The notes below the pieces were generated by a model. It was not told the DNA's origin and searched no databases. It saw only the letters and a program-made list of their open reading frames with translations. A program made the position numbers and the translations under genes. From Fibrobacter sp. UWB16 (GTDB taxonomy: Bacteria > Fibrobacterota > Fibrobacteria > Fibrobacterales > Fibrobacteraceae): a stretch of 64,000 nucleotides of DNA. This document shows positions 49,533 to 62,319 of the stretch, in pieces. Positions within the stretch are counted from its first letter, which is position 1, and each line of letters begins with the position of its first letter. The DNA is taken from positions 744,001-808,000 of the forward strand of contig NZ_OCMS01000001.1 of the NCBI RefSeq assembly GCF_900215325.1, in the 5' to 3' direction.

Positions 49533-49618
49533 ATTTCATGATACTAGCTTTTGTTTTTCGAACAAAATTAAGTAATTTTTAGCAAATTTTTACAAAAACC
49601 AAATCCTATGATACTAAA
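49533..49618 (-). promoter_or_regulatory. Direct-repeat motif pair upstream of TIGR02147 copy 3
   Basis: ATTTCATGATACTA at 49533-49546 and CCTATGATACTAAA at 49605-49618, same orientation, 70 bases apart. The second contains TGATACTAAA, which is also the left arm of an inverted repeat at 61237-61246. A weaker ATTTCATCAT lies at 49513. Confidence 0.55.
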
Positions 49619-60331: not shown

Positions 60332-60976
60332 CTACAAACTAACAAATTTCTTCATACCCGCAAAAGTGACCGTCAAGCTTACGAGAACCGACACGACTAA
60401 CGTCACCAGAGGCACAAACAAATTACTCAAAAAAACTTCGTGGCCAAGCTGTACAAGCAACAGAAGCGGGATAATGAAAAAGAGTGTCATGTGGGTCGCT
60501 GCACGGACAGTCTTTACACGAAGCGACACCATCAACGAAAACGCAGTCGTCAACAACACCGCCGAAAGCGCCCCAAGCATCGAGGCCACCGCCGCCGTCA
60601 CCGTAATTTCGGAATGCGAGAACCAGTAGCCCAGTTGAGCCAAAAGCGCAAACACTAACGGGAATGGGAGAATTGCAAACAACTTGCCCCAAAAGAGTTT
60701 CGCAGGCGCAATCGGAGAAAGCTGCAAAAGTTCCAGCGAATTGCGTTCGCGCTCGCCTGCAAAACTGTCGCCCGCTAAAGGAGCGCCCATCGGAGCCATC
60801 AGGCAACCGAGCAAAAGCATCATGTAGCTTCCCATGCCCTGCATAATCTCGCCACCGTAACGCGACACGGCAATCGCCTGACTCGCCGCGAGAATCACCG
60901 GCGGGATGATGAACGGAATCCAAAAACGCGGATCCCTAAAGATCAAACGAAGTTCGTGTCTAAAAACGTGGAGCAT
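60332..60976 (-). CDS. ABC-2-type transporter permease
   Basis: 214 residues with six membrane segments. The N-terminal coupling helix RHELRLIFRDPRFWIPFIIPP and the central SFAGERERNSLELLQLSPI, often seen as GERExGTLExLLxxP, are typical of NatB-like ABC-2 permeases. Such permeases export ions or peptides with an ATPase partner, but no ATPase gene is next to it within the window: upstream is a 400-base regulatory region. The partner is elsewhere or the permease is orphaned. Confidence 0.82.
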   Translation of the reverse strand: MLHVFRHELRLIFRDPRFWIPFIIPPVILAASQAIAVSRYGGEIMQGMGSYMMLLLGCLMAPMGAPLAGDSFAGERERNSLELLQLSPIAPAKLFWGKLFAILPFPLVFALLAQLGYWFSHSEITVTAAVASMLGALSAVLLTTAFSLMVSLRVKTVRAATHMTLFFIIPLLLLVQLGHEVFLSNLFVPLVTLVVSVLVSLTVTFAGMKKFVSL

Positions 60977-61056
60977 ATATCTAACCTAGAACTTAGAAAA
61001 AAGAGCGACAGCAAGGGCGATTTAAAAGCACGCGAAGTACGATTTTGGCCATTTTA

Positions 61057-61272
61057 TGCTACTAATTTTGAATTTCTGCCGTTTTTGTAGCATAAAGTTT
61101 CTTTTGTCTGCAAATATTTTCGAATAAAAAGCGTTTTCTCATGCTACTAAATTTGCATTTTGACGAGTTTAGTAGCACAAGCCCAACAAGCAAATACGAA
61201 ATCGGTCCGAATTTCGTTTAATTTATCTAGACTTTTTGATACTAAATCGAGATTTTTTCACTTTTAGTAGCA
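61057..61272. promoter_or_regulatory. Three identical-geometry inverted repeats between divergent genes
   Basis: Each unit is a 10-base arm, 16 bases, and the 10-base inverse arm: 61057-61092 (TGCTACTAAT / TTTTGTAGCA), 61142-61177 (TGCTACTAAA / TTTAGTAGCA) and 61237-61272 (TGATACTAAA / TTTAGTAGCA). Every unit spans exactly 36 bases, with centres 85 and 95 bases apart. The region has no gene. It lies between the minus-strand ABC permease (start 60976) and the plus-strand lipoprotein (start 61381), so it could control both. The 16-base loops could also form RNA hairpins. Confidence 0.6.
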
Positions 61273-61380
61273 TATTTTTGCATTTCGTCAGCAATTTCCA
61301 TGTCAAATCGATTGAGACACCTCAAAAAATGTATATTACACAAAGTAAAAAAATCATTCTTTACGAGAAGAGAGAAACAC

Positions 61381-62319
61381 ATGCATTTACGCCATCTTTT
61401 TTTCATCACCAGTACCTTTTTATTTTTCGCCTGTGGAGAGAGCGAAACACCGACTAATGCAGAAAAGAAAAACGCAGAAGTTGCAGGAACATGCACCGAC
61501 CCATCCATAAATATTACGATCGACGATGTTCAAAGCACCATGACAGCGCACCTATTGAACACGCGAAATGAATGCTCCGTCGATGGAGATGTTTTCACAT
61601 TCACTGGTGAAAAAAGGGAACGCGACCTAGTTTTCGATTACCAGTTCGTCGGAGACACCTTGATTCTCGCAGCACGTGGCGAAGGCTATCAAGAAATCGT
61701 ACTGGTCGGTGGCAAGAACGGAAACCTTTCAGCTCGATGGAAAGTTCTCCCAGGATACAGGTTTATCAATGGATCCATAGTCAAAGAAGAAGTAAGCTCA
61801 GACACACCCAATGACTATTATGACATTTCCGAAAGTTGCCTATTTATTAAAGACAACAGCCTTAGCAATTGGGATTATACGGAATCAAGACTGACCGCCT
61901 GGATTTACGACAATCTTTTCTCGCGCTACAAGTTCATTCATTCAAGCAATGCCTATGGTGACGAGCTGTTTACACGCGGAGGCGACCTAGTCGCTTCTGT
62001 CAAGGAAGAGTACGGGATAACAGTTCTTGAAAAAACACGTACGTCAGAAACAATCACGGCTTTCGGCCAAACAGTTTCAATCCGTTATGATAACATTCAA
62101 AGCGATACCCGATACTACATTTTCAGATCTTACGACGCCACAGTAGAAGCAAACGGCAATTCCTGCAATTACACTTATTTGTACATGAGTGAAGTACCAG
62201 AAGAAGCATGCAAGGCTGAATACAAAGATTACATCGAAGTTAAAGACAACAAAGCCGTAAGAGTCAATAGAGACAATACGGAATCATTCGCCCAATGCCT
62301 TCTCGGTCTGCTCGAGTAA
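61381..62319 (+). CDS. Lipoprotein of unknown function downstream of the triple inverted repeat
   Basis: 312 residues from the ATG at 61381 (GAGAG ahead). Lipobox FFAC (Cys18), then a short polar linker. The mature part is beta-rich with paired cysteines (GTCTDPSINITIDD, RNECSVDGDVFTF, ESCLFIKDN, GNSCNYTYLYMS, EEACKAEYKDYIE). An in-frame upstream ATG at 61300 adds a basic stretch without a ribosome site and is rejected. No family is recognised. The next gene starts seven bases after its stop. Confidence 0.6.
   Translation: MHLRHLFFITSTFLFFACGESETPTNAEKKNAEVAGTCTDPSINITIDDVQSTMTAHLLNTRNECSVDGDVFTFTGEKRERDLVFDYQFVGDTLILAARGEGYQEIVLVGGKNGNLSARWKVLPGYRFINGSIVKEEVSSDTPNDYYDISESCLFIKDNSLSNWDYTESRLTAWIYDNLFSRYKFIHSSNAYGDELFTRGGDLVASVKEEYGITVLEKTRTSETITAFGQTVSIRYDNIQSDTRYYIFRSYDATVEANGNSCNYTYLYMSEVPEEACKAEYKDYIEVKDNKAVRVNRDNTESFAQCLLGLLE

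Follow-up and report, generated by a model that had tools for sequence, protein, structure and literature searches.

Helix-phased palindrome arrays in curved intergenic DNA of Fibrobacter, a probable docking site for a chromosome-folding protein

Introduction

What function could be served by three inverted repeats of identical geometry located between two divergent genes? The question is raised by a region of Fibrobacter sp. UWB16 that was analysed within a stretch of 64,000 nucleotides, referred to below as the window. At window positions 61057-61272 there are three palindromes, each 36 bases long and composed of two 10-base arms around a 16-base spacer. An earlier note on this DNA had described the units and read them as an array of either protein-binding sites or RNA hairpins, possibly sharing a regulator with a TIGR02147 gene elsewhere in the window.

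Results

The array in the window

The coordinates and 10-16-10 geometry of the three units were confirmed, and no units were found at matching stringency in 100 dinucleotide shuffles of the window. The features of the region are the following.

60332-60976, minus strand: flanking ABC-2 type permease gene, with about 80 bp between its start codon and the array
61012-61317, no strand: approximate extent of AA/TT phasing, covering the array and about 45 bp either side; family-wide phasing likewise fades outward
61057-61092, plus strand: palindromic unit 1, 10-16-10, family A arms TGCTACTAAA/TTTAGTAGCA with 2 arm mismatches; aligned with 14 other arrays
61098-61113, plus strand: degenerate box 1 (TTTCTTTTGTCTGCAA) after unit 1, from the array alignment; the window copy falls below the exact box pattern
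61142-61177, plus strand: palindromic unit 2, exact arms (0 mismatches), 85 bp (8 turns) from unit 1
61218-61226, plus strand: constant box 2, TTAATTTAT (consensus TTANTTTRT), centre 32.5 bp before the unit 3 centre
61237-61272, plus strand: palindromic unit 3, 1 arm mismatch, 95 bp (9 turns) from unit 2
61381-62319, plus strand: flanking lipoprotein-like ORF (start at about 61381), no Pfam match; the neighbour here differs between species

The permease and the lipoprotein-like ORF are divergent, and permease orthologues mark the same slot in other species. The earlier statement that the spacers differ and the loops are not kept applies to most of the spacer but not to its centre, where an A/T run (AWTTT) is conserved. 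Even when this array is taken alone, its AA/TT phasing stands out from random places in the window (p=0.0002). Simple AGTAGG/TTAGGT-like repeats occur upstream of the permease in some species (60977-61056 and its orthologues at L074, L037 and L075); together with the species-dependent downstream neighbour, they mark the slot as a point of gene turnover.

Copies and arm families in the genus

A genome-wide search for 10-16-10 units with these arms, which the note had proposed, was run and revealed seven three-unit arrays in the host assembly (3.56 Mb, 9 contigs), in either orientation and always with spacings of 84/85 and then 95 bp. From one locus to another the sequence between units differs, conservation being limited to blocks that follow unit 1 and that lie on either side of unit 3. 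The host assembly also contains a mixed array: one A unit flanked on both sides by units of a second family. A B-A-B array of this kind at L034:4946-5188, with a TGCTACAAAA unit flanked by two TTTACGTGAA units, is conserved in genome G001 (L043).

Arrays were located by arm patterns and by scans of chosen stretches. In two relatives, the orthologue of the window slot carries family B arms (TTTACGTSAA), i.e., the same slot holds different arms; this family, with 42 bp per unit, is common in several Fibrobacter species. Family C (arms GTACCTATAAA), with 3-5 units per array, is abundant in other species of the genus, and TGYTACCAAA arm variants were found in two F. succinogenes metagenome-assembled genomes (MAGs). 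When a detector blind to arm sequence was applied to 400 kb from two species that lack A, B and C, one array was recovered; its arms, TTTACGGACTAAA, were new and its units lay 74 and 95 bp apart. The species that yielded it contributed 200 kb of the scanned DNA. A related TTTACGGAAAC family, with units 179 bp apart, is present in another species. Several arm families coexist within one genome in species-specific mixes, with about 20-40 matched units per family and about 7-20 arrays per genome. An array consists of 2-5 units of 36-44 bp, with loops of 16-22 nt, and spans 170-330 bp. We conclude that the element is a repeated, intergenic chromosomal architecture in many Fibrobacter species and that the window array is one copy of it.

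Spacing, curvature and a constant box

The distance between outer units was determined at 27 independent family B loci, and takes the values 168, 178, 187-189, 198-200 and 209-210 bp. These values are best fitted by a period of 10.5 bp (R=0.93, Rayleigh p ~7e-11), a fit reached by none of 20000 jittered controls. Adjacent spacings in family C (n=55) fall at 63, 74, 85, 95 and 106 bp (R=0.925, Rayleigh p ~3.5e-21). At one orthologous slot the distance is 209 bp in three species and 199 bp in a fourth, the 10-bp difference, one turn, lying in inter-unit DNA.

The DNA itself is phased in the same way. In families A, B and C, AA/TT steps show maxima at distances of 0, 10, 21, 31, 42 and 52 bp from the unit centre, and the in-phase signal is retained when inter-unit DNA alone is compared with shuffles (z = 8.1, 19.7 and 8.9, respectively). 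The phasing spans the array and about 40 bp beyond, and has faded by about 64-106 bp from the outermost unit. All three families share a box, TTANTTTRT, at an offset of -32.5 or +28.5 bp (in some cases about 42 bp) relative to the centre of a unit; it was also seen once in family F. Its density is 2.9-6.6 per kb in arrays (6.6 per kb in family A) versus 0.1 or less in flanks. Assignment of this internal box as a DnaA box was considered and rejected: one copy only (G069, L076) fits TTATCCACA well, and the shared consensus is TTANTTTRT.

Placement in the genome

Only one of 46 array loci overlaps a predicted gene. Arrays occupy 18 convergent, 13 co-directional and 9 divergent gaps, while the other gaps in the same loci number 13, 37 and 21, respectively. 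Convergent gaps are thus enriched (18/40 versus 13/71, p=0.004), and divergent gaps are not favoured. The neighbours are unrelated, largely housekeeping genes, and no gene recurring beside arrays was seen across A and B loci. The note had named orthologous loci and promoters as the places where its reading could be tested, and the outcome is mixed: arrays persist at their slots in close relatives, but the same slot is empty in others, so that arrays have been gained or lost, and most arrays lie off promoters. Of the eight A arrays in genome G069, seven occupy slots that are also used in G000.

Clustering near the origin was not seen in G069, where the arrays of contig C1 lie at 140, 393, 738, 1366 and 1544 kb and dnaA, used as the origin marker, at 952 kb. 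A second DnaA-like ORF of 488 aa, below the TIGR00362 cut-off, is located at G000:C1:64492-65901 and is also found in G069 and G073; in both G000 and G069 some 11 kb separate it from an A array, the same one in the two genomes.

The proposed link to the TIGR02147 gene did not hold. The TGATACTAAA match upstream of that gene lies at 49609-49618 (not at 49608) and has no partner arm 26 bp away. Though put forward as rare, it is at chance level, since 2.5 one-mismatch arm matches are expected by chance in the window. Every one of the 61 Fibrobacter genomes searched, with or without arrays, has TIGR02147 (DUF4423) genes: scored matches number 6 to 35 per genome, and first-look candidates up to 55. 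Few arrays adjoin such a gene. A shared operator near 49609 was therefore rejected, and a shared promoter regulator also fits poorly with the enrichment of arrays at convergent gaps.

Constraint and concerted change of the arms

Between species, orthologous arrays differ at 2.3% of arm positions, a value biased downwards as most orthologous pairs were found via exact arm matches. The spacers (8.0%) and inter-unit DNA (8.5%), whose figures are less affected, also lie below the 4-fold sites of neighbouring genes (22.8%). The difference between arms and spacers is significant (p ~1.5e-7). The window slot of G069 was found via the flanking gene rather than the arms, and gives the same order: 12% in arms, 34% in spacers and 36% in inter-unit DNA. 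In this pair the 4-fold rate, 18%, is exceeded by both spacers and inter-unit DNA, so the degree of constraint outside the arms varies from locus to locus. Judged from these comparisons, orthologous arrays are constrained, and the arms are the most constrained part.

Arms also change together. At the slot between miaB and MQSFE the geometry is kept in another MAG, while the arms TGCTAC(T/A)AAA have become TGYTACCAAA; at a second slot, four of six arms are changed alike in another genome. Because dispersed sites change in concert, these comparisons point to a trans-acting reader with altered specificity. Left and right arms, for their part, do not covary. At position 7 of the family A arm, the sole freely varying one, left and right are complementary in 29 of 53 units, as expected of independent positions (permutation p=0.56), and the other deviations in family A arms are one-sided. 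An RNA hairpin is therefore unlikely. The whole-turn spacing, the lack of left/right covariation and the arms changing together across loci strongly support the protein-binding half of the earlier reading, and count against its RNA-hairpin half.

Discussion

What was observed directly is palindromes in helical phase, phased A-tracts, a constant box, constraint and concerted arm change; the locus is probably a docking site where a putative protein folds the chromosome. In the explanation that we propose, at roughly even confidence, the three units together make up a single copy of an intergenic element for nucleoprotein assembly, dispersed in Fibrobacter; curved DNA would be looped or wrapped there, with a probable role as a chromosome anchor and a putative protein as its reader. 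Each unit would provide two half-sites read by a putative DNA-binding protein, most simply a dimer. With units whole turns apart on A-tract DNA whose bends are in phase, the bound proteins would share one face of the helix and could meet, and contact between them may close the 170-330 bp into a loop or wrap, as the phasing suggests. The constant TTANTTTRT, at its fixed offsets, probably binds an accessory factor. The number of arrays per genome and their location mostly at operon ends suggest that the likeliest role is chromosome anchoring or structuring, akin to that of a looped repressosome, and not the control of a single promoter. The specificity of the protein would shift between species, with the dispersed sites following.

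Two other explanations appear unlikely to us, though each accounts for part of the data. Arrays could be remnants of non-autonomous mobile elements, MITE- or REP/BIME-like, with units 1 and 3 as transposase-binding ends, the phasing left by a transposition complex and the families as successive invasions. Presence or absence at an orthologous slot and the species-specific mixes of several families per genome would follow from this, REP families co-evolve with RAYT transposases (PMC2817692), and local array duplication does occur: at L119:3731-5226 in G004, two near-identical B arrays lie 1.25 kb apart beside trpS. (A similar array pair is present in G061, L139.) Against it, orthologous arrays are well below 4-fold divergence and most constrained in their arms, seven slots are common to G000 and G069, arms have switched in situ with the geometry retained, and no autonomous copy was seen. 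The RAYT (Y1) transposase of REP systems is moreover absent from array-bearing G000, G073, G079 and G029, and present in G069 and G060.

We give a similarly low probability to the arrays being operators at which one or several transcription regulators form DNA loops and so repress adjacent genes. Helically phased palindromes are a hallmark of loop-forming operators, and the units of families B and C do lie whole turns apart; the window array is between divergent genes, and two B slots are 148-230 bp upstream of TIGR02147 genes. This reading is opposed by the unrelated housekeeping neighbours, by the preference for convergent over divergent gaps, and by a TIGR02147 copy number that does not track the arrays. 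An RNA gene, or an array of RNA hairpins transcribed across the region, is far less probable still: the inverted repeats are able to fold and the entire array is conserved, but spacing is quantised in turns of B-DNA, arm pairs of family A lack compensatory changes, and the sole Rfam match is far below the gathering score.

Comparison with known systems places the arrays near several and within none. By appearance the nearest element class is REP/BIME. There too, palindromic units of about 35-40 bp are dispersed between genes and combined into composite arrays, with species-specific families and co-evolution with a cognate protein (PMC2817692, PMC3733652), but the defining features tested are lacking here. 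REP copy number usually exceeds 100 per genome (PMC2817692), well above the unit counts given here, and stems kept by compensatory changes were not seen in family A. The Fibrobacter arrays further differ in spacing locked to helical turns, in loops of 16-22 nt and in their small number per genome. As a working model, the nearest would be the GalR-HU repressosome of E. coli and GalR-mediated chromosome restructuring (PMC5110547), in which palindromic operators at phased distances act with an accessory bending protein and sites off obvious targets are proposed to shape the chromosome. Unlike that system, Fibrobacter arrays comprise 2-5 units (36-44 bp each), have A-tracts in phase along their whole length and carry a second, constant box; their arm families differ by species, and they favour convergent gaps rather than the controlled promoter at which a GalR/LacI-like operator is located. 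Phased A-tract regions linked to nucleoid proteins (PMC3940949) share the AA/TT period of about 10.5 bp and a proposed cooperation with bridging proteins, but in Fibrobacter the curvature is restricted to discrete elements, where it is in register with particular palindromes.

Sites of the parS/matS type number from a few to dozens per chromosome, are palindromic, and are bound by a structuring protein. The Fibrobacter units resemble them in this, with a structuring protein that is putative, but are longer, are grouped in arrays of 2-5, show no visible clustering near dnaA and vary in arm sequence within the genus.

No description of such elements was found in the literature, as covered by open-access full text. 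We tentatively suggest, with somewhat less than even confidence, that they constitute a class of bacterial chromosomal element not described before and resembling insulators or anchors, in which a putative protein would build a wrapped loop on palindromes set in helical phase on already curved DNA. The arm code would turn over fast between species, with the dispersed sites following it genome-wide, beside a constant accessory site. Any claim to be categorically new concerns the element class; looping in itself is a mechanism of a known type. Bacterial counterparts of insulators and loop anchors are poorly known, and the arrays supply exact DNA coordinates and are strongly marked by their geometry, namely whole turns, phased A-tracts and the constant box. 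With natural arm swaps between close species and exact sites at hand, the reader protein should be findable by DNA affinity capture, and the evolution of its specificity directly testable.

Searches beyond the genus returned one isolated unit, a single match, among viral sequences, and, in genome contigs from outside Fibrobacter, single units mostly without the A/T centre, except for one local tandem array in L047, from a Parasporobacterium MAG. At L047:2034-2320, seven tandem 36-bp palindromes, TGATACGAAA-16-TTTCGTAGCA with an A/T centre, are repeated at a period of 41-42 bp, or four helical turns, next to an operon for an oligopeptide transporter; the unit geometry is similar, the organism unrelated.
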